Shown here piece by piece: positions 5,330 through 38,449 of a stretch of DNA of 38,449 bases. Numbering within the stretch: the first letter of the stretch is position 1; each line of letters starts with the position of its first letter. Where the stretch lies: the NCBI GenBank assembly GCA_020053015.1, contig JAGVNY010000135.1, positions 1 to 38,449 on the forward strand, read 5' to 3'. The notes below the pieces were generated by a model that did no database searches, was not told the origin of the DNA, and worked only from the letters and a program-made list of their open reading frames with translations. The translations under genes and the position numbers were made by a program. The DNA comes from Candidatus Zixiibacteriota bacterium (GTDB lineage: Bacteria > Zixibacteria > MSB-5A5 > JAABVY01 > JAHJOQ01).

Positions 5330-6202
5330 CTACTGGCCCGACATCACCTGACTGACTTCCGCCGGAGTATATCCCTCCGGAACCGCAAAGCGGGACTTGT
5401 CAATCTTATCGCTCTTCACATCTTGCACCTGCAACGTGAGGCCCATGTTGAACGTATTCGGTAGTCCCTCGTTTATCGCGAGACTTACGTCGCCGGCGAA
5501 CGGAAACCCTCCCAGCTTCGTGTAGAAGCTGTCGAGATTATCACGGCTCATGCCGAAACGCTGCAGGAAATCAAGGAATCCACCCGGTTGCATTCGCTTG
5601 TCTGCTATCTCGCTTATCGCTCTCGCCTTGAACGAGTTGAATGCATCATATCCGACGAAGCTGTCGCTCACCCAGAACTTCCCGGTCATCCGAGTTGTCG
5701 CTTCTTTGTCCGCAGTTTTGATCGGAATCGCGAATGACACGTCCACACCCTTGCACTCCACGCCCGCGATTACCTTCGTCTCCGACAGCGGCTTCACTTC
5801 GATACTAAGCTGCGGTGAAGTGGACGGAGGAACTGAGGAGGAAGCGGGGATCGGTATGGAGGCATAAATCTTCGATACGTCGTTGAGGTACAGGACTACC
5901 TTCTTGTCGAGGTCGATCACCGTGGAAAATCTCGATGTCCTCGTGGTGTCTCCCATCGGAATTAGGGACTCCATATCTACACGGGCAGCGGCTCCGTCAG
6001 TCGTGTACTGCTGATTGAAGGTTATGTTGCTCATCATCGGAATACCAGACACTGTCATCGTGTACGCAATGGAGAGATTCCCCCCGGCTGCCTGACCAGC
6101 AGGCGTACCGCCTTCCGACGTCTTCGAGTTTGCCTTTTCCGACGGTGAGCAGCTGAATATCAGCGCCGCCGACATCATCACCAGAATAGCCTTCTTAATC
6201 AT
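5330..6202 (-). CDS. Lipoprotein, DUF4412-like
   Basis: 290 residues. A lipoprotein signal (MIKKAILVMMSAALIFSC) puts the lipidated Cys at 18, followed by a Ser/Lys/Gly-rich linker. The mature part has the pattern of DUF4412-type periplasmic proteins: an opening strand (LSIAYTMTVSGIPMMSNITF), a central IDLDKKVVLYLNDVSKIY segment, then a strand around VIAGVECKGVDVSFAIPI and a C-terminal VPEGYTPAEV. The function of this group is unknown. The ATG at 6202 has AAGGAG seven bases upstream; the longer frame to 6256 lacks a signal at its N terminus and overlaps the neighbouring gene, so I reject it. Confidence 0.75.
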   Translation of the reverse strand: MIKKAILVMMSAALIFSCSPSEKANSKTSEGGTPAGQAAGGNLSIAYTMTVSGIPMMSNITFNQQYTTDGAAARVDMESLIPMGDTTRTSRFSTVIDLDKKVVLYLNDVSKIYASIPIPASSSVPPSTSPQLSIEVKPLSETKVIAGVECKGVDVSFAIPIKTADKEATTRMTGKFWVSDSFVGYDAFNSFKARAISEIADKRMQPGGFLDFLQRFGMSRDNLDSFYTKLGGFPFAGDVSLAINEGLPNTFNMGLTLQVQDVKSDKIDKSRFAVPEGYTPAEVSQVMSGQ

Positions 6203-6252
6203 GCTGCAACTCCTTCTCGTCGCCATGCCGTGCCGCGACTGGCGCCGTATTG

Positions 6253-6459
6253 TCAATTTGATTCACTTCTTCGCCCGAGAACAGGGGAATCAGCCTCCTG
6301 CCTGCGTGTATTGATGATCCGATTAATCTCCGATATCTCGTGGATGAATTCGCGTCTGGTCTGGTGGTCAAGATCCAATATGCTGTCGAGACTCCAATGA
6401 AGGTGATATGCGACAAAAGCTACCTCCCGGGTAAGCTCCTCCCGGGGGTAGCTCGTCAT
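6253..6459 (-). CDS. DUF6760-type small protein of contractile injection systems
   Basis: 68 residues. The sequence YPREELTREVAFVAYHLHWS followed by ILDLDHQTRREFIHEISEIN matches the small DUF6760-like protein that, as I recall it, sits between tube and LysM/spike genes in extracellular contractile injection system (eCIS) clusters. Its role there is unclear; assembly is likely. Its ATG overlaps the stop of the preceding tail assembly gene by four bases (ATGA), so the pair is translationally coupled. No other eCIS gene is present beside it. The family assignment is from pattern memory and needs a profile search. Confidence 0.75.
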   Translation of the reverse strand: MTSYPREELTREVAFVAYHLHWSLDSILDLDHQTRREFIHEISEINRIINTRRQEADSPVLGRRSESN

Positions 6460-6860
6460 TTTCCCAGGCGCTTGTACTCCACATCAAATGCGTGACCGCA
6501 TGATGGACATGTCACGGAAACCGTCGGTTCGCCATCCTCATTGATGCTTCTGTAGAGATCCTGCAAGAATGAGAGATCGGCGGAATACATTTGCTGCACA
6601 ATCTCCGAAGTGATCCCATTCAGGTCACCGAGCTTGGTAACTACCCTCGAAAGTATCAAGATCACCAAGTACGCCTTGTTGTCCTTGACTCTCGGATCGC
6701 CGAGAGGTTCGATCTCGTCTCTGGCTGTCGCAAGTCGCATCACTCCTTCCCTGTGAACCTTGCCGTCATGATCGATGTAGCCCTTGGGAAGCGTGAATGC
6801 GAACTCGGTTGAAAACGGTGATCTGCTCGTAGTAACCGTATCGTGCACAGTGTCTCTCAT
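6456..6860 (-). CDS. T4-like tail assembly protein of a contractile injection system
   Basis: 134 residues. The middle is strongly reminiscent of the short tail assembly proteins of eCIS loci: STEFAFTLPKGYIDHDGKVH, EGVMRLATARDEIEPLGDPR, YLVILILSRVVTKLGDL and SADLSFLQDLYRSINEDG. It ends with VTCPSCGHAFDVE, a single CxxC that may bind zinc with a second copy or partner. The ATG at 6860 has GGAGT six bases upstream. It is coupled to the DUF6760 gene by a 4-base overlap. In complete loci these proteins are thought to help tube or baseplate assembly; sheath, tube, baseplate and AAA+ ATPase genes are all missing from this window. Confidence 0.78.
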   Translation of the reverse strand: MRDTVHDTVTTSRSPFSTEFAFTLPKGYIDHDGKVHREGVMRLATARDEIEPLGDPRVKDNKAYLVILILSRVVTKLGDLNGITSEIVQQMYSADLSFLQDLYRSINEDGEPTVSVTCPSCGHAFDVEYKRLGK

Positions 6861-9066: not shown

Positions 9067-12000
9067 CTACTTCATCAACATCATCTTCTTGGTCTGCGCG
9101 TAATCGCCTGACGACAACTTGTAGAAGTATACGCCGGACGATACAGTTCTGCCGGACACATCATCGCCGTTCCAATCGACCGTGTATTCACCGGCCGCCT
9201 GGAAACCGTCCACGAGAACCTTAACCTGCTCGCCAAGGAGATTGTAAACCGTCAGAGTCACGTTGCCCGCATCAGCCACGACGTACGAGATGGACGTCTT
9301 CGGGTTGAACGGGTTCGGATAGTTCTGACTCAGATTGAACGTCATGGGAATCGTGGCGTGGCCACCGAGCGAGCTCAAAGCTCCAACATTCACCTGATCG
9401 CCATTGTCTGACCAGGCAAATGTCTCAGCGGTCTCGACACCGTTGATTACCAGGTGGAACTCGCCACCGGCAGCCGGACCTTCTGACACGTTCTTAGTGG
9501 TAGCGTCATCACCATACACCGGCATGAAGCCGAGCATACCGTTGGTCGCAACCACGAACGCACCGCAAATGCGGCCGTTTGCATCGACTGCTTCGACAAC
9601 CGAGCCCGATACGATCGGCGTGCCGTCAACCGTCACTGCGTCGCCGTACAGATCGATCCACTGCGTGGTCGGAACGACCGAAGCGAAAGTGGCGCGTTTG
9701 GCCGAAGTATTGTCTGCAACTGTCGAAGCAAATGTCGCAAACTTCGCGCCCGGATAGGTCAAGGTCACATCCTCAGTAACCTTGAACCAGTAACCGAATT
9801 CAGGAGCCAGATAGCGAAGCGTTGAGAAGTCAGGATTGTTTGGATCCCACGTCACACCGCCACCGTAGAAGCCCAGCGCAACGATCAATTCTGAATAGAT
9901 CGAAGCCAGGGCAACCGGCGTCGAGTCGTTGACGTCAGGCAGATATGAAGCGAGGTTCCAACCTTCTTCGAGGTAAATCGGGGTAGACGGATCGACCGGC
10001 AGACCCTCAACGCAGAACTCAACGTCTTCGCTCACTCTGAACCAGTATCCATGATAGTGATCCATCGTGTGCAGAGTCGAGAACTGTGGCAGGTCTGGAT
10101 CGTAAGTCAGACCGCCCTGCTCGAAGCTGAGAATCACTTCGACTTTGTCGACTATGCTGGCGATCAGCGTCTCAATGTCGTCACTCTCGGTGTCGACATT
10201 CCACGAGATCAGGTTCCAACCTTCATAAAGATCAATACAAACCGTCTTGATCGACTGAGCATCAAAGCAAGCTTCGATCCTATCGCCGTTCTGTGTCCAT
10301 TCAACCGGCACGTCGAGGTACTCGGTCACATCGAAGCCATTCAGCTTGATCGTGACCAGGTCGCCCGGATCGCAACCTTCGTCAAGCGAAGGAGTAGTCA
10401 AGCTGTCGTCACGGTAGACCGGCATGAAGCCGTAGTGACCGCTTTCGTCGACAAAGAACTGACCACAGAGTACTCCGCTCGGATCGAACGCCTCAATCAC
10501 ATCACCCGGTAGAATCGGGAAGCCGTCGAGAGTGGCGCTTCCGCAGTACAAGTCAATCCACTCGTTGGTCGGCATCACGTCATCGGAGATCACGAGAGTA
10601 ACAACTACTTCCTCGTCCGGGGCCGCAACCGGCAGCAGAGTCGGATAGTAGCCATCCTTGTGGACACGGAGCTGGTAAATGCCCGAGTAGCCCTCGAACA
10701 GGAAGTTGCCGCCACCGGAAGTCATCATCGAGGCAAGAACCATACCATCGGGATACGAATCCCAGAGCTCGACGACTGCATCGTCGATAGGATCGTGGGC
10801 TTCCGTCTCAACCGTGCCTGCGATATCGGTCGGCACAGCCGCTCCGACTGCGAGGTGCACGAATACGTGCTGATCGGCGACGCCCGTTCCGCTCACCGTG
10901 ATAGAGTCGTAGTAGTCACCTTCTACGAGAGAGCCTACGTTCACCATCAGGGCGACGGTACCGTCATCCGTGCCTGAGGTCGGCAGGACTGACAGCCAGG
11001 GTCCGATATGAACAGTTGCAGTCCAATCGATACTGACTTCGCCGCAATTGGTGATTTCAAGGTACTGATCTGCCGGATTAGCTCCGCCCTCGGTCGCCGT
11101 GAATTCGAATATGTCAGGATTGACATCAAGACACGGGATCGGCGGCTGGAGAATCTCAATGGAACCGGCGACAAACTTCGGATAGACAGGATCGCCGTTT
11201 TCGTCGGCAAACATCAATTCATTGTCCGGCAATGTGAAGGAGATCGTGTCAAGCGGCACGATGCCTGGAACAGCAGCCGGATCGATGTGGAAGTGCAGAT
11301 ATGCCAGCGGGCCGGTGCCCGGAGCAATCATAGCTTCCTGCACAACGATGATGCCGACCAGTACAGTCTGATTCACGTTGTCAATCGATACAACCTTCGA
11401 GGCTATGTAATCGACGCGTGTGCCAAAGAAGTTGACCGAATCGCAAGTAAGTCCGTTCACGACCTTGGCCAATCCGTCGAATCTGATCGGAAGAGTAATG
11501 CCTGAGAGATTTTCGATGTTCTTGAAGTTCACTTCAACAACGACGGCTTCACCAGGCATGCCGCTATCAGTGCCAACCCAAACCGTGTCCTCATCAGGAA
11601 TCACGACTTCGTTAACAACGAGATCGACAATAGCGGCCTGCGGTGAGTTAAACGCATTTCCGGAGACCCAGATGGTGTCCTGATACTCACCGGCGACAAG
11701 CGAAGCGCCGTCAATCGAAAGGACTATGTCATCCGGCGCTACGCCAGAGACCTTGGAAAGGAGCAGCCACGCCGAGTCCTTCGCGGCAGTCCAGCTCAGA
11801 GTTCCGGTTCCGCCGTTTATCACGTGGAGAACCTGGTCAGCCGGATTCGGGCCACCCTCGTCCATTTCAAATGAGAAGTAGGAAGGATCGAGAACGATTT
11901 CCGGATTCTCTGCCACTGGATTGACGACGAGCGTCACACTGGCAGTCTGCGGATCATTCGTAGCTGCCGGATCGGACACTGTGACTGTGGCCACATAAGT

Positions 12001-14373
12001 GTCGGGAGTAAGGCCGGTGATATCGACACTGAGCGTCACCATCCCGTCGCCAGTTCCCGAAACAGGATTGAGCGCCAACCAGGCGGCATCATCCGACGCC
12101 GTCCAATTGAGCGTTCCGCCACCGATATTGGTGATCGTGAGGAGCTGATCTGCCGGATTCGCACCGCCCTCGGTCGCTGTAAACGTGAAGGATGTGCCTT
12201 CGAGGAAGATCGTCGGCGGAGCCTCAGCTATGTTCAGTGTTACTTCCGCAGTCTGCGGGTCGTTAGTGGCCGAGGGATCGGAGATCGTAACCGTGGCAAA
12301 GTATGTGCCTGCGGTCATGGCTGTGATGTCGACGGTCAGAGTAACTGCCGCATCGCCGACGCCACCGGTCGGATTGAGGAACAGCCATGCTGCATCATCA
12401 GAGGCGGTCCAATTGAGCGTTCCGCCGCCTGTGTTCGTTATGTTCAGCGTCTGATCAACAGGATTCGAGCCGCCCGCGACCGCGTCAAACGTGAACGCTG
12501 TCGGATTGAGATCTATGGTCGGCGGAGCCTCGTTGATTGTCAGGTGGACCAGCATCGTCTGAGGATTGTTGGCCGCCGCTACGTCCGTGATGGTCACGGT
12601 CGCGTCATATACACCAGCGGCAAGCCCAGTAATATCAGCACTCAGCTCGACGTCGCTGTTGCCGACTCCTGATGTCGGATCGAGCGTCAACCAATCGGCA
12701 TCATCAACGCCAGTCCAGTTCAGCGTGCCACCGCCACCATTAGTGATGTGGAGAACCTGAATTGCAGGATTCGCACCGCCAAGAGTAGCGACGAAGAACA
12801 TCTCCGTAGGATCTAGCACGATGAGCGGAGCCGGCTCTGCTATGTTCAGTGTAACGGTAGCCGATTGCGGGCTATTGTCCGCAGCAGCGTCCGTAACAGT
12901 CACGATTGCATTGTACGTACCGGCTGTAAGGCCAGCGATGTTTACGCTCAGCGCGGCTGAACCATCGCCCGAGCCGGAAACCGGATTCAGTGACAGCCAG
13001 GCAGCGTCATCTGAAACTGTCCAGTTAAGCGATCCACCACCGCTATTCGTAATGCTCAACATCTGATCAGCAGGATTCGAGCCGCCCTGCACTGCATCAA
13101 ATGTGAATGCAGTCGGATCAAGGACAATATGAGGTGGCAGAGCTGAAACGTTCAACGTGACAGTCGCCACCGCCATTGCATCCTTCTCTAAATCGTCGAG
13201 AACTGTAACCGTCGCATTGTATGTACCAGCAGCAAGACCTGTTATGTCAACATTCAGCGTGGTCGAGCCATCACCGGTACCGGATGCCGGATCCTCCGAC
13301 AGCCACGGGGCATCGTCAGTAGCCGTCCAGTGGAGCGTGCCGCCGCCGCCGTTGGTGATGTTTAGCGCCTGGCCAGCCGGATTCGCGCCGTCCTGGACAG
13401 CGTCAAATGTGAAGCTCGTCGGGTCAAGCACGACAAACGGAGAAGGCTCCGAGATGTTCAGAGTGACATTGGCCGTCTGCGGGCTGTTATCAGCGGCCGG
13501 ATCAGTCACGGTAACAGTGGCATTATACGTGCCGGCAATCAACCCTGTGGTGTTAACGGAGAGTGTTGTCGAACCGTCTCCAAAACCTGACAGAGGATTC
13601 AGAGTCAGCCATGCAGCATTGTCGGAAACACTCCAGTTAAGCGTGCCCGTACCGCCGTTCGTGATGCTCAGAACCTGATCGACGGGATTCGCGCCACCCT
13701 GCACTGCGTCAAACGTGAAAGCAGTTGGGTTGAGCACAATGCTCGGCTGCTCGGTAACGACACCCAACTGGTTGTCTACGGTAATCGTAGCTTTCGTAAA
13801 TGCCGGAGAGAACCCAGTGCCACCAGAGGGCGAGAATTTGAATGTCCCTGCAGGCGGGAAGAATAGAGTATCTATCTCAATCTCGAAGCTTTGTGGAAGC
13901 TGCGTCGGATCGAGCACTCTGACTCTAAGCTGGCCCAGCTCCGTGGCAACATTCGGAGGCATGAATGAGGGAGGGAAGAAATTGATCATACCAACCAAAC
14001 AGCCGTTGCGGTCGGTCAGCTGTGCCAACGGGAAAGTAGATGCGTCAAGCGCAGCCTGAGCGAATGACTTTGCCAACGCAGCAGCGGTGAACGAAAAGGT
14101 GTCAATGGCGATCAGGGAATCGTCGTGACCCATTCCGCCACCCGTGTTCGTCCTGGCAATCAAGGGCAAAGATACCCCAAGGATGTTGCTTTGGTCAGTA
14201 CGACCAATTAGCGGCAGCAGCAACAACGTATCTGCCGGATCATCGATCGTCCACACATGTGTAGACGGTGTGAATCTCAGCGTGTCCGGAATACCCGCAT
14301 CCTGAGCGAGCGCCGGAACCGTCAGTATGATCGCGATCATCATCGTCAGAATCATGCATCGCGTTGTTTTCAT
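9067..14373 (-). CDS. Giant secreted BACON-repeat protein with cohesin-like and sorting domains
   Basis: 1768 residues. Domains in order: signal peptide 1-23; an N-terminal region to about 205; seven BACON-like repeats of about 100 residues at 209-925, each with a VLxPTxFTFDAVxGGxNPxDQ start and a GGGTLNWTxSDDAAWL core; a cohesin-like domain 928-1076 (VWVGTDSGMPGEAVVVEVNF); an eighth BACON-like repeat 1077-1178; a carboxypeptidase-regulatory-like domain 1181-1262; a beta domain 1268-1372 (EWIDLYCGSATLDG) repeated at 1568-1665; a two-fold GWNLxSW region 1378-1540; and an FlgD-like sorting domain 1678-1768 (LSQNYPNPFNPKTSI). The ATG at 14373 has an AGGAGGAG site. BACON domains are linked to glycan or mucin binding, so a surface adhesin or scaffold is likely. 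The long antisense open frames here are by-products of the repeats. Confidence 0.9.
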   Translation of the reverse strand: MKTTRCMILTMMIAIILTVPALAQDAGIPDTLRFTPSTHVWTIDDPADTLLLLPLIGRTDQSNILGVSLPLIARTNTGGGMGHDDSLIAIDTFSFTAAALAKSFAQAALDASTFPLAQLTDRNGCLVGMINFFPPSFMPPNVATELGQLRVRVLDPTQLPQSFEIEIDTLFFPPAGTFKFSPSGGTGFSPAFTKATITVDNQLGVVTEQPSIVLNPTAFTFDAVQGGANPVDQVLSITNGGTGTLNWSVSDNAAWLTLNPLSGFGDGSTTLSVNTTGLIAGTYNATVTVTDPAADNSPQTANVTLNISEPSPFVVLDPTSFTFDAVQDGANPAGQALNITNGGGGTLHWTATDDAPWLSEDPASGTGDGSTTLNVDITGLAAGTYNATVTVLDDLEKDAMAVATVTLNVSALPPHIVLDPTAFTFDAVQGGSNPADQMLSITNSGGGSLNWTVSDDAAWLSLNPVSGSGDGSAALSVNIAGLTAGTYNAIVTVTDAAADNSPQSATVTLNIAEPAPLIVLDPTEMFFVATLGGANPAIQVLHITNGGGGTLNWTGVDDADWLTLDPTSGVGNSDVELSADITGLAAGVYDATVTITDVAAANNPQTMLVHLTINEAPPTIDLNPTAFTFDAVAGGSNPVDQTLNITNTGGGTLNWTASDDAAWLFLNPTGGVGDAAVTLTVDITAMTAGTYFATVTISDPSATNDPQTAEVTLNIAEAPPTIFLEGTSFTFTATEGGANPADQLLTITNIGGGTLNWTASDDAAWLALNPVSGTGDGMVTLSVDITGLTPDTYVATVTVSDPAATNDPQTASVTLVVNPVAENPEIVLDPSYFSFEMDEGGPNPADQVLHVINGGTGTLSWTAAKDSAWLLLSKVSGVAPDDIVLSIDGASLVAGEYQDTIWVSGNAFNSPQAAIVDLVVNEVVIPDEDTVWVGTDSGMPGEAVVVEVNFKNIENLSGITLPIRFDGLAKVVNGLTCDSVNFFGTRVDYIASKVVSIDNVNQTVLVGIIVVQEAMIAPGTGPLAYLHFHIDPAAVPGIVPLDTISFTLPDNELMFADENGDPVYPKFVAGSIEILQPPIPCLDVNPDIFEFTATEGGANPADQYLEITNCGEVSIDWTATVHIGPWLSVLPTSGTDDGTVALMVNVGSLVEGDYYDSITVSGTGVADQHVFVHLAVGAAVPTDIAGTVETEAHDPIDDAVVELWDSYPDGMVLASMMTSGGGNFLFEGYSGIYQLRVHKDGYYPTLLPVAAPDEEVVVTLVISDDVMPTNEWIDLYCGSATLDGFPILPGDVIEAFDPSGVLCGQFFVDESGHYGFMPVYRDDSLTTPSLDEGCDPGDLVTIKLNGFDVTEYLDVPVEWTQNGDRIEACFDAQSIKTVCIDLYEGWNLISWNVDTESDDIETLIASIVDKVEVILSFEQGGLTYDPDLPQFSTLHTMDHYHGYWFRVSEDVEFCVEGLPVDPSTPIYLEEGWNLASYLPDVNDSTPVALASIYSELIVALGFYGGGVTWDPNNPDFSTLRYLAPEFGYWFKVTEDVTLTYPGAKFATFASTVADNTSAKRATFASVVPTTQWIDLYGDAVTVDGTPIVSGSVVEAVDANGRICGAFVVATNGMLGFMPVYGDDATTKNVSEGPAAGGEFHLVINGVETAETFAWSDNGDQVNVGALSSLGGHATIPMTFNLSQNYPNPFNPKTSISYVVADAGNVTLTVYNLLGEQVKVLVDGFQAAGEYTVDWNGDDVSGRTVSSGVYFYKLSSGDYAQTKKMMLMK
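11599..13749 (-). repeat. Tandem array of seven approximately 306-bp BACON-domain units
   Basis: Seven head-to-tail coding units with diverged DNA but a conserved protein pattern (FDAVxGGxNPxDQxLxITNxGGGTLNW). Units 1-6 are closer to each other than to unit 7. An eighth unit lies apart at about 10840-11145, beyond the cohesin-like domain. Such arrays can recombine and change copy number, but the divergence suggests this one is old. Confidence 0.85.
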
Positions 14374-16883: not shown

Positions 16884-17468
16884 TCAAAGCGAAACTGCGT
16901 CGAGTTCGAGGAAGAATTCATGGAATGCGGGGTTATCGGTCAATTCCGGATGGAACGCCGTGACAAGCACGTTTCTCTGCATCGCGCCCACTACTTCGCC
17001 TCTACAGTGAGCTATCGGCGTCACATGAGAGCCCAGACTTACGATCTTCGGAGCTCTGATGAATACCATCTGAAATGGTTGAGTCACTGCATGAATACAG
17101 GCCGTCCCCTCATCTATAAACGAATCGATCTGTCTGCCGTAAGCGTTTCTGGCGGCGCTGATGTCAATCAGCTTGAGCGGGTGAATCGCAGGATCATCGA
17201 CGCTGTCTGAAAGGACTATCAGTCCGGCACACGTGCCCCAAACGGGGCGCCGCCTTCCGAATTCAAGCAACGGTTCCCGGAGGTTGAAGGTGTCAATCAG
17301 CAGTTGAATCGCGGTCGATTCGCCTCCCGGAATTATTAGCCGGTCAACTTCTCGCAGATTTTCGACGGTGCGGACGAGAGATGGCCTCGCGTCGAGTCGC
17401 TCGATCATGCGGCAATGCAGACCAAAGTCCCCTTGAAGAGCGAGGACACCAACAGTCTGCTTACTCAT
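16884..17468 (-). CDS. pdxT: Pyridoxal 5'-phosphate synthase glutaminase subunit PdxT
   Basis: 194 residues, the usual length. PdxT hydrolyses glutamine and passes ammonia to PdxS in the DXP-independent PLP pathway. The class I glutamine amidotransferase triad is present: Cys80 in VWGTCAGLIVLSD, and His173/Glu175 in TAFHPELTDNP. The oxyanion-hole and substrate motif LIIPGGESTAI is at about 44-54. The gene follows pdxS by 72 bases on the same strand; that gap holds a small CGGCGG/CCGCCG hairpin (17492-17509). Cytoplasmic, expected to form the 12+12 PdxS-PdxT complex. Confidence 0.96.
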   Translation of the reverse strand: MSKQTVGVLALQGDFGLHCRMIERLDARPSLVRTVENLREVDRLIIPGGESTAIQLLIDTFNLREPLLEFGRRRPVWGTCAGLIVLSDSVDDPAIHPLKLIDISAARNAYGRQIDSFIDEGTACIHAVTQPFQMVFIRAPKIVSLGSHVTPIAHCRGEVVGAMQRNVLVTAFHPELTDNPAFHEFFLELDAVSL

Positions 17469-17540
17469 TCTGATTCACCAAAAAGACGAAGCGGCGGCGC
17501 TCACCGCCGGTCGAAAGATGTCCTGCAGTTACTCAGGCAA

Positions 17541-18419
17541 TTAGCGATACTGTAACAGATTTTCCTCCGGTATGTCCCGGATATCGAGGCCATCCATGGG
17601 AGCGCCGAGAGGCCTGCTTGCCTCAAGGACAGCTCTCGGATCGCTAAAATGAGTAGTGGCTTGCACTATAGCCTTCGCCCTCGCAGGCGGGTCCGATGAC
17701 TTGAAAATCCCGCTCCCCACGAAAACCGCCTGCGCGCCAAGCTGCATCATAAGAGACGCATCAGCAGGAGTAGCTATACCTCCCGCTGCGAAATTTGGCA
17801 CCGGAAGCTGCCCGAGATGGGCGGTCTCCTCGACAACCTCAACAGGCGCCTTCATCTCCTGAGCTTCGCGCTTCAATTCATCGGGGTTCATTCCCTGAAG
17901 CCGTCTGATGTGCGACATGACAATGCGCATATGGCGGACCGCCTCGACGATGTTGCCCGAGCCTGCCTCGCCTTTAGTGCGTATCATCGCGGCTCCTTCG
18001 GAGATTCGACGAAGCGCCTCGCCAAGATCGCGACATCCACACACGAACGGAGTTTTGAATCGCCACTTGTCCACATGGAATTCCTCGTCCGCAGGAGTCA
18101 GAACTTCGGACTCATCGATATAATCCACTTCGAGCGCTTCAAGCACCTGTGCTTCGGCGAAGTGTCCGATCCTGCATTTGGCCATGACGGGAACCGAAAC
18201 CGCTTGTTTGATCTGAGCAATGACTTCCACGCTTGCCATGCGGGCTACTCCGCCCTGCTTGCGAATATCGGCGGGCACTCGCTCCAACGCCATCACTGCA
18301 ACTGCACCCGCATCCTGTGCGATCTTTGCCTGCTCGGCTGTCGTGACGTCCATGATCACCCCGCCCTTGAGCATCTCGGCAAGACCCACTTTGAGCTTCC
18401 AACTGGAATCTTTCAACAT
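17541..18419 (-). CDS. pdxS: Pyridoxal 5'-phosphate synthase subunit PdxS
   Basis: 293 residues, typical length. PdxS makes PLP from ribose 5-phosphate, glyceraldehyde 3-phosphate and ammonia. With the start chosen here the catalytic residues fall at the standard numbers: Asp24 (GGVIMDV), Lys81 ([10 protein letters not shown]) and Lys149 ([10 protein letters not shown]), and the phosphate-binding [14 protein letters not shown] is near the C terminus. The ATG at 18419 follows an AGAGGTG ribosome binding site; the frame also opens at 18437 but without support. It is transcribed with pdxT and is divergent from the IscU gene. PLP is the cofactor of SelA, encoded elsewhere in the window. Confidence 0.97.
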
Positions 18420-18452
18420 ATCACACCTCTTGGTCAATATCTAACCAGACTT

Positions 18453-18753: not shown

Positions 18754-19149
18754 ATGTCAAGACTCCACCCATATTCAGACAAGGTCATGGACCACTTCAC
18801 CAATCCCAGAAACATGGGTGAGATAGCAGACGCAGACGCAGTCGCGGACGTCGGAAATCCCGCCTGCGGCGACATGATGCGGCTATACATCAAGGTCGAG
18901 GACGGCAAGATCGTTGACGTTAAGTTCAAGACCTTTGGCTGCGGGGCCGCAATAGCGGCATCGTCGATGCTGACTGAGATTGTCAAAGGCAAAACGATTG
19001 CCGAGGCGGAAAAGATCACGAACCGACAGGTAATAGATGCTCTCGGTGGACTCCCCCCTGTGAAGCACCACTGCTCAGTGATGGCCGAGGAAGCCCTCGC
19101 CAACGCTATAAAAGACTACAGGTTGAAGCATCAAGGTTCAGGAAGTTAG
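18754..19149 (+). CDS. IscU/NifU-type Fe-S cluster scaffold protein
   Basis: 131 residues. IscU proteins assemble [2Fe-2S]/[4Fe-4S] clusters on three Cys, using sulfur from a cysteine desulfurase. All ligands are present: Cys38 and Asp40 in GNPACGDMM, Cys63 in KTFGCGAAIA and Cys107 in PPVKHHCSVMAEEAL. The N terminus YSDKVMDHFTNPRNMGEIAD is that of the archaeal/NifU-N-like IscU group. The frame opens at 18715, but the ATG at 18754 has AAAGG upstream and gives the usual N terminus. The desulfurase-like gene follows 207 bases later on the same strand with its own promoter-like sequence. No HscA, HscB, ferredoxin, IscA or IscR gene is present. Confidence 0.93.
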   Translation: MSRLHPYSDKVMDHFTNPRNMGEIADADAVADVGNPACGDMMRLYIKVEDGKIVDVKFKTFGCGAAIAASSMLTEIVKGKTIAEAEKITNRQVIDALGGLPPVKHHCSVMAEEALANAIKDYRLKHQGSGS

Positions 19150-19356: not shown

Positions 19357-20565
19357 ATGATTTACTTCGATCATCAATCAACGACGCCGGTCGATCCGCG
19401 TGTGGTGGAGGCGATGCTGCCCTATTTCTCCGGAACATACGGAAACCCCTCATCGCATATCCATGCGCAGGGAGTTGCGGCTGGAGAAGCGCTTGACAAC
19501 GCTCGCCTTTCGGTGGCGTCATCGATAGGTGCAAAACCAGAGGAAGTCATTTTCACATCGGGAGCCACTGAAGCTAACAACCTCGCGATCAAGGGTTTCG
19601 TTGAGGCAAATGCTGATAGGGGAAAACACATAATAGCCTCGGCAATCGAGCACTACTCGGTACTGGCACCACTTCGATCACTTCAGTCTCGTGGATTCGA
19701 AGTCACCTATGTTGGCTGCGATAAATACGGCATGGTTGACCCAGTGGATGTGGGCAAAGCGCTGAAACATGACACGGCGATGATTACTGTGCAGGCAGCC
19801 AATCCTGAGATCGGGACAATTCAGAGAATTCAGGATATCGCGCTCTTCGCGAGAAAGCACGACGTGTACTTCCACACTGATGCAGCGGCCGCTTCCGGCA
19901 TTGTTCCGATTGACGTTGATGTTCTTGGAGTTGATTCTCTCACGCTATCGTCACACAACATGTACGGGCCCAAGGGCGTCGGAGCTCTGTACCTTCGCAC
20001 CGGCAATCGGCTCTCGTGCCAGATCGTGGGTGGCATGCAGGAAAGCGGCTACAGATCGGGCACAGAAAACCTTCCGGGAATTGTGGGCATGGCAAAGGCC
20101 TGTGACTTGGCGAAGGCGGAGGCGAGTACTCGGATTGAACTGCTCAAGAACTTGCAGATTAAACTCTGGGATTGGCTCGCAAACAACGTCGAGTATCTGG
20201 AATTTACTGGGCATCCCATGTACCGCATACCGGGACATGTCAGTTTTTGGGTCAAGTTCATAGAGGGTGAGTCGCTTCTCCTGATGCTCAACATGAAGGG
20301 AATCATGTGCTCATCGGGTTCGGCTTGCTCATCGAATCTAAGAGGGCACGACGAGGAAGATCTTGCTGCCTCGCATGTCCTCACCGCTGTCGGTGTGCCG
20401 GCTGAATTCTGCTCCGGGTCACTAACAGTGTCGATGGGCAAAGACAACACCGAAGACGAAGTTGACTACATGATTTCAGCGCTCCCGAGCATCATAGAGC
20501 GCCTCCTCGCGATGTCCCCGCTCTATGCGGACAAACTCAAGGGCAAAGACCCTTACTCCAAATAA
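19357..20565 (+). CDS. NifS/IscS-like protein lacking the PLP-binding lysine
   Basis: 402 residues, full length for the cysteine desulfurase family (class V aminotransferase fold). It starts MIYFDHQSTTPVDPRVVEAM and keeps SGATEANN, the PLP-stacking His99 (IEHYSVL), Asp175 (HTDAA), SGTEN and the mobile sulfur-carrying Cys324 (SSGSACSSN). The Schiff-base lysine, normally in SSHKxYGPKG, is Asn201 here (SSHNMYGPKG; codon AAC at 19957-19959). The Gln of the usual DAxQ is Ala178, and NNEIG is NPEIG. The frame is otherwise intact. As I recall, an Archaeoglobus IscS with Asp at this position crystallises with IscU and lacks ordinary desulfurase activity, so this may be the same subfamily; its closing SPLY segment also agrees. 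Extra Cys318 is near the active loop. ATG 19357 is chosen because the promoter leaves little leader before it. Confidence 0.9.
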   Translation: MIYFDHQSTTPVDPRVVEAMLPYFSGTYGNPSSHIHAQGVAAGEALDNARLSVASSIGAKPEEVIFTSGATEANNLAIKGFVEANADRGKHIIASAIEHYSVLAPLRSLQSRGFEVTYVGCDKYGMVDPVDVGKALKHDTAMITVQAANPEIGTIQRIQDIALFARKHDVYFHTDAAAASGIVPIDVDVLGVDSLTLSSHNMYGPKGVGALYLRTGNRLSCQIVGGMQESGYRSGTENLPGIVGMAKACDLAKAEASTRIELLKNLQIKLWDWLANNVEYLEFTGHPMYRIPGHVSFWVKFIEGESLLLMLNMKGIMCSSGSACSSNLRGHDEEDLAASHVLTAVGVPAEFCSGSLTVSMGKDNTEDEVDYMISALPSIIERLLAMSPLYADKLKGKDPYSK

Positions 20566-27067: not shown

Positions 27068-28693
27068 CTATCCTCCCCAATCCTCCAATGTATCCCATCC
27101 GTGGACACACTCGCCTTCAAGAAAGGTCGCCGCGACCCGAAGCTCTCTGAGTTGATCCGTCGGCACCTTTGCCGGGTTCTGCTCCAATAATATCAGATCG
27201 GCATAATAACCTGGCGAAATCACACCGTAACTGGATTCATCCCCTAGCGCGTAGGCGATGCCCGACGTAAATCCTCGGATGGCATCTCCGACAGCAAGTC
27301 TCTGGTCGGGTCGGTGAGTATGGCGCCTATCGAATGACTTCCGTGTGACCGCCGACCATATGCCCGCTACAGGGTCTAACTTCTCGATCGGTGCGTCTGA
27401 GCCGAAAGCCAGCCGTGAACCTGCCTTCAGCAATGTCTTGAAACTGTATGCCATCGACGACCGCTTCCCAAGATACTTCGAGATCAGGTAGATATCGCTG
27501 CTGCAATGGGACGGTTGGACGGAAGCAACAAGTCCGAGATGCGCAAGACGAGCGATGTCATCATCGCCTATGATCTGCACATGCTCAATCCTGTGCCTGA
27601 GAGACCAGAGCTTCTTCGGCAGAGCTTCAAACGCATTGATGGTCTGGCTGTTGGCACGGTCTCCGATAGCATGCACTGCGCATGCGAGGCCACCGCCGGC
27701 AGCCCGTCTTATCTGGTCCTTCATCTCGGCCTCCGAGGTAACCTCGACACCAGCGTTCTTCCGCGATCCGGCGAACGGTTCAAACATCAGTGCTGTCTGC
27801 GAACCCAGTGAGCCGTCAGCGAATATCTTGACTCCAGCTATGGCCAGCCTGTTATCTCCGAATCCTGAACGGAGCTTCAATGAGAGCAATTGTTCAAGGA
27901 ATCGAACGGGGATGTACTGGCGGACTCTCAGCTTGAGACCGCGGGACTGATGATACTCCTGCAGCAGCTCGAAATTGGCTATGTCGTCGAAATTGCCCAC
28001 AGAGGTAACACCCTTTGCGTGGCACTGTCTAACTGCGAGATCGATCTGATCGAATGCAGTCGATTTGGATGGCTTCGATACATGTCTCCACACGAGGATG
28101 CAGGCGTTCTCACGCAAGACACCGGAAGGATCGCCATCTTGACCGCGGTCTATCTGACCGCCCGCAGGATTAGAGGTTTGACGGTCAATTCCAGCAATCT
28201 TCAACGCTGCAGAGTTGGCCCAAAGCAGATGCTCATCTTTAGAGAATATCGCGGCAGGATGTCCGCGCGAGACGCGGTCGAGATCAGCCTTGTGCGGAAG
28301 TCGCGGCTTTGCCCATTTGTCCTTAGCCCACCCTTTGCCCACCAACCACCCGTCGGGCGGGAGTTTCCTGGCGTGCTGCTTGCATCGATCAAGCGCCTCT
28401 TCATAAGAGGTGCAACCGTCGAGATCAACGTTTGAGGTCGACAGGGCAAAGTAAGCAAAATGAACGTGAGCATCTCCAAAAGATGGCAGCAATGTGCGGC
28501 CAGCAAGATTGATGAGCCGGTACTCGTCCGTGGGAACGGCGACAATGTCGTCATTACGTCCCACCCAGCTGATCCTGCCGTGGCTTACTGCAACTGCCTG
28601 AGCCGATGGATTGCGAGGGTCGAGTGTCACTACATTGCCGGAGTGGAACAGCAACCCCGGAGCTTCGTTCGCCTCTTTGCGAATGCGTTTCAT
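27068..28693 (-). CDS. Amidohydrolase family 3 protein (YtcJ-like)
   Basis: 541 residues. N-terminal beta-sandwich (GNVVTLDPRNPSAQAVAVSH) and a metal-dependent TIM barrel: DAHVHF (His76, His78), VHAIGDRAN, HRIEHVQI, and the conserved Asp in AFGSDAPIEKLDP, followed by WSAVTRKS. This is the large Amidohydro_3 group of zinc enzymes that cleave C-N bonds of amides, N-acyl amino acids or formamides; the substrate cannot be read from sequence. No signal peptide, so cytoplasmic. Its ATG overlaps the selB stop by four bases (ATGA), so its translation is tied to the selenocysteine factor. No in-frame UGA is present, so it is not a selenoprotein as read here. Confidence 0.92.
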   Translation of the reverse strand: MKRIRKEANEAPGLLFHSGNVVTLDPRNPSAQAVAVSHGRISWVGRNDDIVAVPTDEYRLINLAGRTLLPSFGDAHVHFAYFALSTSNVDLDGCTSYEEALDRCKQHARKLPPDGWLVGKGWAKDKWAKPRLPHKADLDRVSRGHPAAIFSKDEHLLWANSAALKIAGIDRQTSNPAGGQIDRGQDGDPSGVLRENACILVWRHVSKPSKSTAFDQIDLAVRQCHAKGVTSVGNFDDIANFELLQEYHQSRGLKLRVRQYIPVRFLEQLLSLKLRSGFGDNRLAIAGVKIFADGSLGSQTALMFEPFAGSRKNAGVEVTSEAEMKDQIRRAAGGGLACAVHAIGDRANSQTINAFEALPKKLWSLRHRIEHVQIIGDDDIARLAHLGLVASVQPSHCSSDIYLISKYLGKRSSMAYSFKTLLKAGSRLAFGSDAPIEKLDPVAGIWSAVTRKSFDRRHTHRPDQRLAVGDAIRGFTSGIAYALGDESSYGVISPGYYADLILLEQNPAKVPTDQLRELRVAATFLEGECVHGWDTLEDWGG

Positions 28694-30564
28694 TCTGCCA
28701 GCACTCTCCGATCTCCAATGCGTTTCGTTATGCCCATTGAATCGAGCTTCTCGAGAATAGGCACACCGTACTTCCGCGAGAACCCGAACAGATCACGCAC
28801 GTCTGCCACGCCTAACTGCCCTTTGGACTTTATGGTCTCGACAATCCCATTCGTGATTCGCTCGAAGTCGGCTCCCAACAATACGAGGCCCTCCGGTAGT
28901 TCGACAATCTCTCCGGAGTCAATCATGAATGCAACCACATCACGCATCGCGAAGGACTTCCCTTCAATCTGCCTGCGTGAGGGGGGATTTGACGGATCAT
29001 CCCTGAACATTCTGAGCACGTCCCCTTTGAGTCTCTCCTGCTCAGGTTTAAGCCTCGGCTGAAACCCGGCAGAGTGCACAAGCGCTCCTGCCACTGACAG
29101 CCTCCCGTCTTCGATCATCCACTGAATCGCGAGTTCACTCGCGTATAAGTCGGCATCGAGTTTCGAGATCAATTCTGCTTTGGGTATACCCTTGCGGGCC
29201 GGATGCCTCTCATGAAATCTGATGACTGTCTCAGTCAGCTTGTCCGCGAGCCTGGCGTATTCGGATGCTCCATAGACCAGTTCTCCGCGTTTCACCAATT
29301 GCCCGGACTGCACCATCTTCTCGATCACGCTGGAAATCTCGGTCCTCGACCTATTGACCGAGCGGCACACGCTGGCGACAGGCGCCGCCTTGCGCTCCGA
29401 AATCTCATGCAGAACCACACTTTCGACTTCGTCGACACGGATCGACTCAAGACGCTTCCTGGTTCGCTTGTCCGACCGGGGGTGGTCAGCACAATCCGTG
29501 GCTATAACTTCGCCTCCTCCGAGAAGAACATCAGGCGCTGGAAGACGCAGGATGAATCGATCTCCAACGCGTGCGAGCGCCGGCGAATCCAGACGAAACT
29601 CGCAAATACCTTCGGAGCCCGGCTCAAACATATCATCCTGAAAAACGATAGCGGTCGCGTTGACCTTCGCAGTGCCGAGCAGCAGCTTCACAGACCGGCG
29701 ATGCGTGAGTTTGATATTGGCATGCCGTGATATCCTTATGCGGGCAGCAATCGATCGTGAGCCCTCATATTCTCCGGTTCTGATAACCGCACATCCTCTA
29801 TGGAGGTCGTTGTAACTAACGCCTGTTATATTGAGCGCCGCCCTCGCGCCCAATTGAGATCTGTCACGCAGCTTTTTGTGAGCCTGAATGGCTTTGATCT
29901 TTCCATGCAATCGCTGTGGAACGACCAGAATGTCATCGCCGACATTGAAGACACCGTCTCGCATCGTACCTGTTACGACCGTTCCGTGCCCGGTCATCGA
30001 GAAGACCCTGTCCACGTACATCCTTGGGAGTCCTAAGTCCGCTCTCTGCTCGATTGTCGAGAGGCTCTCTCCAATCGCTAGTCGGATGTCCTCCAATCCG
30101 GATGAGCCAACGGCTGAAAACCTGCAAAACCTGGCGCCGTCCAGGAAAGTGCCCCTTACGCGTTCAGCGACGTCGGCAGTCACGAGCTCGAGCCACTCAG
30201 GCTTCACCATGTCCGTCTTCGTAATCGCGATTAATCCACGCTTCGTGTTTAAGTAGTCGAGTATCTCAAGGTGCTCCTGCGACTGCGGCATCCAACCATC
30301 GTCCGCCGCAACCACGAACACCACTGAATCGATGGCGCCGACCCCGGTGATCATCGCGTCGACGAATTTCTCGTGACCAGGGACATCAACGACAGCGACT
30401 TCCGAGCCATCTGCCAGTAGAAACCAGGCGAAGCCCAGCTCGATGGTCATCTCGCGAGCCTTCTCCTCCGGGAGTCTATCAGGATCCATACCTGTCAGAG
30501 CACGGACCAGCGACGTCTTGCCGTGGTCGATATGTCCGGCTGTTGCGATCGTATAAAGCATCAC
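28690..30564 (-). CDS. selB: Selenocysteine-specific translation elongation factor SelB
   Basis: 624 residues, close to the family length. SelB brings Sec-tRNA to UGA codons next to a SECIS hairpin. GTPase motifs are intact: GHIDHGKTS (10-18), DVPGHEKF (60-67) and a TKTD specificity motif. EF-Tu-like domains 2 and 3 follow ([35 protein letters not shown]), then about 250 C-terminal residues with winged-helix repeats that bind the SECIS ([36 protein letters not shown]). selA lies 73 bases upstream on the same strand and tRNA-Sec is 3.4 kb away. The next gene overlaps it by four bases. Confidence 0.96.
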
Positions 30565-30637
30565 TTCCCTGTGTTAATCAGCAGCGAGCATCTCGCTTCC
30601 AATGGTCGCATCGAGATTTCAATGAGCTTCGACCATG

Positions 30638-32026
30638 TCAATTATACGCAGCCAGAACAGCCTTCACAACGAGTTCATCCTCGTGTTCAAAGACCGCTTT
30701 TAGATCAAGCACGAATCTATCGTCAACAACTCGCCCGATTACAGGAGGCTCGCCCAGCCTCAGGCGCGCGGCGATATCATCGGGAGCGATTGTAGTCGGA
30801 AGGCGAACTCCGTGGGAGGGCAGATTCTCGCCCGGAGCGCTGCCTCCGCCTGCCAGGGCGCTGAGCGAAATCGTGTCGGCCTCAACACCTGCCGAGTTCA
30901 GGGCTTTGGACATGCGCTCGGCTCGATCGCGAAGACTCCCCACGCTCCGCTTGAGCAGTCTGACAACCGGCAAATCGGTCTCCGCAAGGCCTCTGAGATA
31001 AGACAGAATCGTTTCTTCAAGAAACATCAATGTCATCTTGTCCGGGCGCATTGCCCTGTACATCGGATTGGCGTGCAAAGCCTTAATCCATTCGGTGTCA
31101 CCGAGGATGATCCCAGCCTGAGGACCACCGAGCAGCTTGTCGCCGGAAAAGCATACAAGATCAGCTCCTGAGCGGAGAGCATCATCAATCGAAAGCTCGT
31201 CTTGAAGACCAAACTCCGACGGGCTCAGCCACACGCCAGAACCGAGATCATACATCACGGGCACTGATCGCTCTTTGCCGAGCTCCGCCAGCAACTTCGC
31301 TTCAACAAACTCGGTGAAGCCGTGCACACTGAAGTTTGACAGATGTACTTTGACTATCATGCCAGTGTTTGAGCCGAGCGCTCGGAAATAATCATCAAAC
31401 GACACTCGGTTCGACGCACCGACCTCGCGGAGGATCGCCCCGCTTGCTTCCATCACATCGGGCATTCGGAACCCGCCGCCAATTTGGACGAGCTCTCCTC
31501 TCGATACAACACATTCCTTCCCCTTGCACAATGTGTTCAGGATGAGAAACACTGCCGCAGCGTTGTTATTGACAACACAAGCAGATCGAGCGCCGGTGAG
31601 TAGTGTCAGCAAGCGAGAAGCATGCTCTCCTCGTCTTCCTCTCTTGCCGGATACGAGATCGTACTCGAGATTAGTGTAGCCTGTCAGCCGTCTTGCGACA
31701 ATCTCCACGAGTCCCTGCCCCAGAGGTGCACGTCCGAGGTTTGTGTGGACCACTATCCCCGTGCAATTGATCACTCGAGTCGAGAATGTCCTGCCGCTCA
31801 GCTTTAGTGAGGCGAGGATATCATCTCTGAGCATGCCCCCTTCAATTTCCAGCCCTTCCGACAGCCGACGACGACACCCGTCGAACGCCCGCTGAATCTC
31901 CTGAACCACGAAACTGCGGGAACACATGCGTACAAAGTCAGCGAACGCAGGGTCCCCCGCAGCTTGCTCCACCTGCGGAATGTCACGCGGAGTAAGAAAC
32001 TTCTTGTCAAAGACGGAACTCACCAT
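30638..32026 (-). CDS. selA: L-seryl-tRNA(Sec) selenium transferase SelA
   Basis: 462 residues, family length. SelA is a decameric PLP enzyme that converts Ser-tRNA(Sec) to Sec-tRNA(Sec) with selenophosphate. The N-terminal tRNA-binding region (LTPRDIPQVE...) and the core with RVINCTGIVVHTNLGRAPLG, YTNLEYDL, VVNNNAAAV and ELVQIGGGFRMPDVM are present. The PLP lysine is Lys297 in CFSGDKLLGGPQAGI. First gene of a five-gene minus-strand operon. selD, which would supply selenophosphate, is not in the window. Confidence 0.97.
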   Translation of the reverse strand: MVSSVFDKKFLTPRDIPQVEQAAGDPAFADFVRMCSRSFVVQEIQRAFDGCRRRLSEGLEIEGGMLRDDILASLKLSGRTFSTRVINCTGIVVHTNLGRAPLGQGLVEIVARRLTGYTNLEYDLVSGKRGRRGEHASRLLTLLTGARSACVVNNNAAAVFLILNTLCKGKECVVSRGELVQIGGGFRMPDVMEASGAILREVGASNRVSFDDYFRALGSNTGMIVKVHLSNFSVHGFTEFVEAKLLAELGKERSVPVMYDLGSGVWLSPSEFGLQDELSIDDALRSGADLVCFSGDKLLGGPQAGIILGDTEWIKALHANPMYRAMRPDKMTLMFLEETILSYLRGLAETDLPVVRLLKRSVGSLRDRAERMSKALNSAGVEADTISLSALAGGGSAPGENLPSHGVRLPTTIAPDDIAARLRLGEPPVIGRVVDDRFVLDLKAVFEHEDELVVKAVLAAYN

Positions 32027-35880: not shown

Positions 35881-37500
35881 TCACAAAGCAATGACTTGAT
35901 GCTCCGTTACATCAATATCGAGATTGTCTCTGATTTTCTCAAGAACTGACTGTCCATACTTGTTCAAGAAATGCAACAGATTATAATGCCGTTCCTGAAG
36001 CGATTGTTCCGGAAACAGAGCATCAGCCATCAATCGGTACTTTCGAGTAAAATCATCATTGGCCTTCCGGTGGCTCTTGAAAGCCTTTTCCTCAAACGAC
36101 TTCAACTCGAAGTCGATCTTCTTGCGGGTTTGCTCTAATGTCCGGATGAGGTCTTTATCTGCCGAGATTCTCAGACCAATCGATTCCATTTCCTTCATTA
36201 TCCTGCTCCTCGTCTCTGAGAGACTCTTCCCATGCTCGTCCGGGAATTGAGTGCGGAGAATCTCCGTGAGATACTCTTCCCTGTCGGTAAACCTCGCCAG
36301 CCTGCCGAGTTCGATACTGTGCTTTTCGATGAGCCTGCGGCACCATTGCTCGACAAGTGTCGCCGAGAGTCGCATGTGAACCACGGGCGGAGTCACCCCA
36401 AACAGGTCGAACAGACCTTTCGCCTGAGCAAAATACGCAACCTCAGCCGGTCCCCCGACATATCCGACTGCGGGAAAAAGCCTGGATTGGACTATCAACC
36501 TCAGAAGGACATTGGGCGAAAAACGCGACGGGTCGCTATCTACCTCGGCCGCGAGCTCTTCGCGTGTCCGCCTGTCGCCGAAGTCGGCAATCTCCAGACG
36601 CCCGTCTGCAATCTTGATCTTCCTGCGCGCGCCGGCTACATAGAACAGATTCAGACTGTCATGGTCGCGCACAACTTGCTGATGATACCCCGTCTGAACA
36701 AGCGACTCACTTGCGGATACAATCGCTCTTCGGGTATCTTCACCAGAGAGTATCTCCTGCCTGAAGATCGGAGCCGACAACTCCTTCGCCTGTGAATCTG
36801 AGGGATCAAACAGAATCAGCGATTTGTCTGGACAGAGCAGCCGCAGGGTCTTTGCAAACGCCGTTGACGCGCGCTCGCCTTTTCGGTAGAGATCAACCAG
36901 GGAAGAAACAAGGGGCCTGCCGTTTGACTCGGCTGGCATCGCTCCAAGCGCAGCCTCTCTGAATCCGTCGATTTCTTCTTCAAGAACCAACTCTGAGACA
37001 GGTTGACCGGGGATTAACCCCGAAGGCGCGTACTCGATCTTGGAGAGCTTTCCATTCTGGTCAGGGAGGTATACGTGGTTGATTTCCTCAAAATCATGAT
37101 CATCAGTGGCCATCCAGAAGACCGGGACAACAGACATGTCAAGCTTGCTGCTGAGTTTTGCCGCGAGCTTCGAAACGGTGAACGCTTTGTAGAGAACGAG
37201 CAGCGGCCCGCCCAGAAAGCATATCTGGTGTCCGGTAACAACGCAAAGCGCTCCTCGCCTGATCTTCTCGATTGCATCCGCAGCCTCATGGCTGTCGCCG
37301 AAGAGACGGTTTTGTCGAAGCAACATATCGGCAAGCTTGTCGCGCTGGTATTCGCTACGCGCCAGGAGACCCGAAGTTCGTTCGTAGCTACTGAGTTCGC
37401 GGAAGTCCCCACCGAGCCATTTCGATAGAGAGCCGGGATCATAAACAAAGTTGCTGAACAACTTCGTGATTCCCGGAATGTCTCTGAACTCAACCCGCAA
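35881..37500 (-). CDS. bshC: Bacillithiol biosynthesis cysteine-adding enzyme BshC
   Basis: 539 residues, family length. BshC is the putative ligase that adds Cys to GlcN-malate to finish bacillithiol. Characteristic stretches are VTGHQICFLGGPLLVLYKAF, VPVFWMATDDHDFEEIN, YVGGPAEVAYFAQ and a long coiled coil followed by the QERHYNLLHFLNKYG end. The frame opens upstream inside the RND gene; I choose the TTG at 37500 because it gives the usual VEFRDIPG N terminus and has GGGAAGG about nine bases before it. It overlaps the last 11 bases of the RND gene. The TTG start suggests modest translation. Confidence 0.92.
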   Translation of the reverse strand: MRVEFRDIPGITKLFSNFVYDPGSLSKWLGGDFRELSSYERTSGLLARSEYQRDKLADMLLRQNRLFGDSHEAADAIEKIRRGALCVVTGHQICFLGGPLLVLYKAFTVSKLAAKLSSKLDMSVVPVFWMATDDHDFEEINHVYLPDQNGKLSKIEYAPSGLIPGQPVSELVLEEEIDGFREAALGAMPAESNGRPLVSSLVDLYRKGERASTAFAKTLRLLCPDKSLILFDPSDSQAKELSAPIFRQEILSGEDTRRAIVSASESLVQTGYHQQVVRDHDSLNLFYVAGARRKIKIADGRLEIADFGDRRTREELAAEVDSDPSRFSPNVLLRLIVQSRLFPAVGYVGGPAEVAYFAQAKGLFDLFGVTPPVVHMRLSATLVEQWCRRLIEKHSIELGRLARFTDREEYLTEILRTQFPDEHGKSLSETRSRIMKEMESIGLRISADKDLIRTLEQTRKKIDFELKSFEEKAFKSHRKANDDFTRKYRLMADALFPEQSLQERHYNLLHFLNKYGQSVLEKIRDNLDIDVTEHQVIAL

Positions 37501-38449
37501 CTTCGCTTGCCTTCCCGTGTTTGCCGGTGAAGAAGTCAGAGATGTCGTCAAACACGGTGTACACAACCGGTACAACGACCAGCGTGAGCAAAGTCGACGA
37601 AATCAGCCCGCCTATCACCACCTGGGCAATGGGAGCACGGAGTTCGGCTCCCGGACCAATACCCAGCGCGAGCGGAAGCATCCCAAAGACCGTGGAAAAG
37701 GTCGTCATCATGATAGGACGGAATCTCGTCGGGCCTGACTTCAGCAGGGCGTCGTATCTCGACATTCCTTCCGCTCGGGCCTGTTTTGTGAAGTCAACGA
37801 GCAAGATCGCATTCTTTGTGACGATGCCCATCAACATGATGACACCAATGAGCGATATGATCGAAATCGAGCTCCCGAAGACGAAGAGACCTATGAATCC
37901 TCCTATCAGCGACAACGGAAGAGATGCCATGATCGACACCGGATCGATGAAGTGGTTATACTGAGAAGCAAGCAGCAGGTAGATGAACAAGATCGCCAGA
38001 AACAGCGCTTCGAATATATAGTCGAAGGACTCTTTCTGATACTCTCCCTCACCGACAGGAGCGATGCCATAGCCTGCCGGCATCTCAATGGTCGCGATTC
38101 CTTTCTCCACGTCTGCGCGGACGTCCCCCGCAAACCGCCCTTCGACGTTCGCAACAACACGGAACTCACGCTTGCGGTCATACCGCGTCTTCTCAGTTGG
38201 GCCTCCCCACCGATCGAGGCTCGCGACGCGCGAAAGGGGAACCATAAAGTTGTCCGTTCCTTCAATCTCCTTGAACGACGGGATCAAGAAGCTCTTCAAT
38301 CCCGGGCCGGCGCTTCGCTGCAATTCGCCAACCCTTAGCCTGATGTCATACTCGTCATCGCCGTCTTTGAATCGCGACACGACGTCGCCCTCGATCATCA
38401 GGCGCACGGCTGATCCTATCTGATACATGTTCAAGCCGAGATCGGCCAC
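37490..38449 (-). CDS. RND-family efflux pump (AcrB/HAE1 type), C-terminal part
   Basis: The last 319 residues of a much longer inner-membrane pump; the remainder lies beyond the right edge. Typical segments: YIFEALFLAILFIYLLLASQ, PLSLIGGFIGLFVFGSSISI, LIGVIMLMGIVTKNAILLVD, RFRPIMMTTFSTVFGMLPLA and the final VVVPVVYTVFDDISDFF. The part before the membrane region belongs to the periplasmic porter/docking domain (YDIRLRVGEL, VNVEGRFAGD). Proton-driven export of drugs or other hydrophobic compounds is expected. Its stop overlaps the bshC start region, so the two may share a transcript. Confidence 0.94.
   Translation of the reverse strand: MADLGLNMYQIGSAVRLMIEGDVVSRFKDGDDEYDIRLRVGELQRSAGPGLKSFLIPSFKEIEGTDNFMVPLSRVASLDRWGGPTEKTRYDRKREFRVVANVEGRFAGDVRADVEKGIATIEMPAGYGIAPVGEGEYQKESFDYIFEALFLAILFIYLLLASQYNHFIDPVSIMASLPLSLIGGFIGLFVFGSSISIISLIGVIMLMGIVTKNAILLVDFTKQARAEGMSRYDALLKSGPTRFRPIMMTTFSTVFGMLPLALGIGPGAELRAPIAQVVIGGLISSTLLTLVVVPVVYTVFDDISDFFTGKHGKASEVAG

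Follow-up and report, generated by a model that had tools for sequence, protein, structure and literature searches.

The window, a stretch of 38,449 nucleotides from a Zixibacteria genome, encodes an intact homologue of the cysteine desulfurases IscS and NifS in which Asn stands in place of the PLP-binding lysine. The same lysine-less clade is present in 22 of 133 genomes of the phylum, is under purifying selection, and is in most loci paired with the gene for the IscU scaffold. By analogy with the IscS of Archaeoglobus fulgidus, we consider it probable, at roughly 60%, that the protein is a pseudoenzyme derived from IscS and binds to IscU, with its Cys324 acting as a cluster ligand or persulfide holder and with sulfur made elsewhere.

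Active-Site Residues of the Lysine-Less IscS

The translated protein (Table 1) carries the motifs SSHNMYGPKG, DAAAAS, NPEIG, and GSACSS and matches the TIGR03402 profile (NCBIfam NifS) with 433.6 bits (E = 5e-130), under the equivalog cut-off of 530.75. Its homology to IscS/NifS extends over the full-length sequence and the fold. Aligned with Escherichia coli IscS (a reference sequence in full match to PDB 1p3w), N201, A178, P150, and T357 of the window protein correspond to K206, Q183, N155, and R354, and H99, D175, and C324 to H104, D180, and C328. The alignment bore out the first-pass annotation, which had described Asn at the PLP-lysine site, Ala for the PLP-contacting Gln, and NPEIG for NNEIG; the change of Arg354 to Thr is an addition to these, bringing the changed active-site residues to four. 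The protein thus lacks the PLP-binding lysine, Arg354, and Gln183 that characterize a desulfurase enzyme and retains the persulfide-forming cysteine of the mobile loop.

The codon at the lysine site is neither AAG nor AAA, and the relatives have no lysine there either. That another lysine takes the PLP role is excluded because the clade alignment has no conserved lysine column, none reaching at least 90% Lys; the adjacent lysine of the GPKG motif is gone in seven clade members.

Table 1. Coordinates of the lysine-less IscS gene, its iscU partner, and the residues discussed in the text
Feature	Position in the window	Strand	Basis or remark
iscU / NifU N-terminal scaffold gene, 131 aa	18754..19149	+	All ligands (Cys, Asp, Cys, His-Cys) present
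Lysine-less IscS/NifS homologue, 402 aa	19357..20565	+	Translation, profile match, fold
Pro150, replacing Asn155 (NPEIG vs. NNEIG)	19804..19806	+	Alignment with E. coli IscS
Ala178, replacing PLP-contacting Gln183	19888..19890	+	Alignment with E. coli IscS
PLP-lysine site, codon AAC, Asn201 (E. coli K206)	19957..19959	+	Alignment with E. coli IscS
Cys324, sulfur-carrying / cluster-ligand cysteine kept (E. coli C328, A. fulgidus C321)	20326..20328	+	
Insert of 7 residues (327-333) particular to the clade, within the mobile Cys loop	20335..20355	+	
Cys352, second invariant cysteine, found only in the Zixibacteria lysine-less clade	20410..20412	+	
Thr357, replacing substrate-side Arg354	20425..20427	+	Alignment with E. 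coli IscS

Outside the lost residues, the clade has invariant positions of its own: two of the loop insert (Asp332 and Glu333) and, beyond it, Cys352, Trp298, Thr284, and Asp392, with His294 nearly invariant. N327 of the insert is likewise invariant in the clade, and the insert is predicted to be disordered; that its residues form an iron-binding loop is speculation. An AlphaFold2 model built with eight sequences had a mean pLDDT of 85, falling below 50 in the Cys loop (325-335). The best PDB matches of the model were NFS1, many of them with ISCU2, followed by A. fulgidus and E. coli IscS, and its TM score to NFS1 and IscS was about 0.9. The predicted fold is in agreement with the NFS1-ISCU2 and A. 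fulgidus IscS-IscU structures.

Conservation and Purifying Selection in Zixibacteria

In all 22 genomes the clade member lacks the lysine, the site being occupied by Asn in 19, Thr in two, and Val in one; fragments were found in a 23rd genome (G053). In the scan of 133 genomes the clade is well separated, its members scoring 600-713 bits against the clade profile and the remaining homologues no more than 460. No clade member keeps the active-site Lys, Gln, Asn, or Arg, and Cys324, His99, and Asp175 are invariant. The retention of these three residues, noticed in the first pass for the window protein, extends to 66 of 66 aligned sequences.

The loss of the lysine goes together with the loss of the substrate-side arginine. 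The Arg354 site holds Thr in 21/21 aligned clade members, and among the 66 aligned sequences the arginine is absent from all 27 lysine-less and present in all 39 lysine-bearing proteins, figures that count sequences and not independent events. Both residues are kept in 41 more homologues, which come from two other phyla. The dN/dS ratios of close clade pairs (0.05-0.08) indicate purifying selection and compare with 0.03-0.07 in the normal lysine-bearing homologues.

IscU Partner and Gene Surroundings

The iscU gene lies directly upstream of the lysine-less gene in the window and usually downstream of it in relatives, adjoining it in 16 of the 22 loci. In one further genome (G003), iscU adjoins a second fragment located on a different contig. 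In families f4 and f5, five genomes carry iscU in nonadjacent positions, in two of them directly after a gene for an Rrf2 regulator. The ligand residues of the IscU proteins are conserved, all five being intact in 20/20. In deeper relatives, the lysine-less gene and iscU are part of a housekeeping cluster that also contains genes for TatA and for purine and phospholipid metabolism.

The IscU partners of lysine-less IscS have a Pro before the N-terminal Tyr (18754-18780 in the window) in 20/20 cases, and in 4/5 cases in the second clade described below; other IscU proteins mostly have Met or another residue there. For human ISCU2, an N-terminal Tyr reportedly triggers dimerization (PMC8617193).

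Several other genes of the window are of note. The PLP synthase genes pdxT and pdxS (16884-18437) lie beside iscU, an adjacency seen again in families f1 and f2 alone; in loci L045 and L049, pdxST is codirectional with the lysine-less gene. Genes for SelB and SelA (28690-32026) lie on the opposite strand, 8-11 kb farther downstream, and the same neighbors are present in the close relative G002. The window also encodes BshC of bacillithiol synthesis (35881-37575) and a 1768-aa protein that combines BACON domains with a C-terminal domain for type IX secretion (9067-14373).

Other Desulfurases and Sulfur Metabolism in the Host Genomes

A second, normal desulfurase, which the first-pass annotation had proposed to look for, was found in the window's own genome. 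It is a standalone lysine-bearing NifS (contig C5) with no IscU within 1.5 kb on each side. The genome also has a fusion of a lysine-bearing NifS with a SelD-like domain of the AIR-synthase type (L003:1486-3813), and frames of a length similar to this NifS-SelD fusion are seen in many relatives. A lysine-bearing NifS is encoded elsewhere in 6/6 of the lysine-less genomes checked.

Genes for SufB, SufD, SufS, and a SufU-like protein are found together on one contig of the own genome. The only NifU-type IscU found there is the partner of the lysine-less gene, as the other match is the SufU-like one beside SufS/SufB/SufD. Searches for SufB and SufD gave no match in four lysine-less genomes, G009, G035, G040, and G042 (completeness 96, 97, 84, and 77%, respectively), and the IscU system should therefore be the working scaffold in them.

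The own genome encodes dsrA, and the gene is present in 13/22 lysine-less and 7/34 other genomes (Fisher P = 0.005 with one partial gene included, 0.019 without it). Irrespective of the direction of the pathway, this link to dissimilatory sulfur metabolism is only suggestive, because related genomes cluster.

A Second Lysine-Less Clade

A second bacterial phylum, that of the genome behind locus L013, has five lysine-less proteins encoded beside iscU. They carry Thr, Thr, Ala, Asn, and Pro at the lysine site and Leu at the arginine site, keep Gln183, and have neither the loop insert nor Cys352. In a tree built with the trait columns masked, both bacterial clades were supported by 100/100 and A. 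fulgidus IscS (sequence as in the 4eb5 record) was placed outside both, and the best tree consequently requires three losses. A single origin was nevertheless not formally rejected, with a p-AU of 0.06 for all three lineages and 0.08 for the two bacterial clades. In searches of other phyla, the lysine was kept in the 30 best-scoring of 399 genomes of one phylum and in all 11 matches from 245 genomes of another; a third phylum, with 396 genomes, yielded no match at the cut-off used.

Locus L013 also holds a single case of a 202-aa IscS-like frame (6001-6609) that has lost most of the PLP domain and kept the C-terminal part with the Cys loop (GSTCSS). It is flanked by genes for an Mrp/ApbC-type ATPase and for FeS_assembly_P (DUF59), and it may represent decay or an assembly fault.

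Proposed Role of the Lysine-Less IscS

The clade-wide replacement of Lys, Gln, Asn, and Arg, the invariance of Cys324, His99, and Asp175, and the paired loss of lysine and arginine suggest, at the level of sequence, a protein that has kept the fold and the mobile Cys324 loop and would have lost the capacity for cysteine turnover. Like A. fulgidus IscS, it would dock on its partner IscU, and Cys324 would enter the assembly site of IscU, either to complete the coordination of the nascent [2Fe-2S] cluster for a time as its fourth ligand or to hold a persulfide. The sulfur could come as free sulfide or be mobilized by the normal lysine-bearing desulfurase of the same genome. Several observations count against the pseudoenzyme: the PLP-contacting His99 and Asp175 are invariant, so the cofactor may still bind, iscU is nonadjacent in five f4/f5 genomes, and the neighboring pdxST genes in f1/f2 would suit a PLP-binding protein.

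A different course of sulfur is conceivable, in which the standalone NifS passes persulfide sulfur to Cys324 and from there to IscU, with Cys352 perhaps as a second thiol. Such a relay is in line with the separation of that NifS from any nearby IscU, with the restriction of the invariant Cys352 to the clade, and with the conserved Asp and Glu of the 7-residue insert. However, Cys352 and the insert are both absent from the second lysine-less clade and from A. fulgidus IscS, and neither can thus be required for a role common to all. Passing sulfur from one IscS-type protein to another is not known as an established step. We regard the relay as rather unlikely.

In PMP-dependent dehydratases, the Lys is replaced by His. 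The protein could similarly hold PLP or PMP without a Schiff base and catalyze a different reaction. The retention of His99, Asp175, and Thr71 is consistent with this; PLP is drawn in the A. fulgidus structure 4EB5, and E. coli IscS K206A retains some PLP binding (PMC9978102). On the other hand, the lysine site drifts between Asn, Thr, and Val, with Ala and Pro added in the second clade. In place of the pocket Gln there is Ala, Ile, Ser, Cys, or Val, and three members have Gln instead of the neighboring His. Such drift is unlike a conserved new active site, and the pdxST adjacency that would fit a PLP enzyme is confined to two families. A reaction of this kind appears quite improbable.

The first-pass annotation had proposed a desulfurase-like partner of IscU that draws on another source (sulfide, persulfide, or selenium) or holds PLP without a Schiff base. 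The sequence supports this proposal insofar as the gene is intact, paired with iscU, and devoid of the residues for normal use of cysteine. A selenium role for the nearby selenocysteine genes fared poorly and is very improbable: despite the sel genes of the window and of G002, the pairing is with iscU, the gene lies in an unrelated cluster in deeper relatives, and the NifS-SelD fusion of the same genome can supply selenium. Lastly, a sequencing error or decaying gene, for which one might invoke the incomplete source assembly of 263 contigs, is ruled out with near certainty by the open frames in 22 genomes, the low dN/dS, and the invariant Cys324, as expected from the intact frame noted earlier.

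The evidence for cluster building with IscS as a mere ligand-giving partner has so far come mainly from a single protein of an archaeon. The two bacterial clades, both conserved, with their paired losses and in part from genomes with no detectable SufB/SufD, make the question testable and provide more proteins to study. More generally, IscS may have turned independently into a noncatalytic part of the IscU scaffold in several lineages of bacteria and archaea, losing the PLP lysine and the substrate arginine each time. Iron-sulfur assembly would then be driven by sulfide and uncoupled from cysteine, and in some bacteria this would be the sole scaffold system. We put this generalization forward tentatively and with the odds somewhat against it.

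Comparison with Known Systems

A search of open-licence papers found none linking the phylum Zixibacteria, or the word pseudoenzyme, to cysteine desulfurases. What is new here is a lysine-less IscS that is bacterial and conserved and that has two features of its own, the loop insert of the clade and an additional conserved cysteine. The window protein shares with the NifS/IscS desulfurases (E. coli IscS, TIGR03402, human NFS1) the fold, the Cys loop, the His and Asp of the PLP pocket, and an IscU partner gene, but differs from them in having no equivalents of Lys206, Gln183, Asn155, and Arg354. Changes at two of these positions, K206A and Q183E, render E. coli IscS desulfurase-inactive (PMC9978102). 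The two-gene iscS-iscU arrangement is shared with the minimal ISC system (MIS), which consists of a desulfurase and a scaffold with no carrier; the difference is that the cysteine desulfurase of MIS is described as the sulfur supplier (PMC12192291).

Two archaeal proteins are also among the closest known systems. IscS1 of Methanosarcina acetivorans, compared by its published description, is reported to have lost the catalytic lysine and to be encoded in an iscSU cluster (PMC7585200). The second is A. fulgidus IscS, the precedent that the first-pass annotation had named correctly: Asp at the lysine position is stated to leave it devoid of desulfurase activity, and one of its cysteines serves as a ligand of the cluster in IscU (PMC7585200), the ligand being Cys321 (PMC9769115). 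Structures are available for it (PDB 4EB5, 4EB7, and 4HVK) and for its D199K mutant (4R5F). It is 47% identical to the window protein, keeps the Cys, His, and Asp, has an IscU partner, and shows the changes Lys to Asp, Gln to Ala, and Arg to Leu. Unlike the window protein, it is archaeal, keeps NNEIG, has neither the Cys-loop insert nor Cys352, and represents a lineage separate from the window clade in the best tree. Nevertheless, the A. fulgidus-type traits, loss of the lysine and the arginine, retention of the cysteine, and an IscU partner gene, are all present here.
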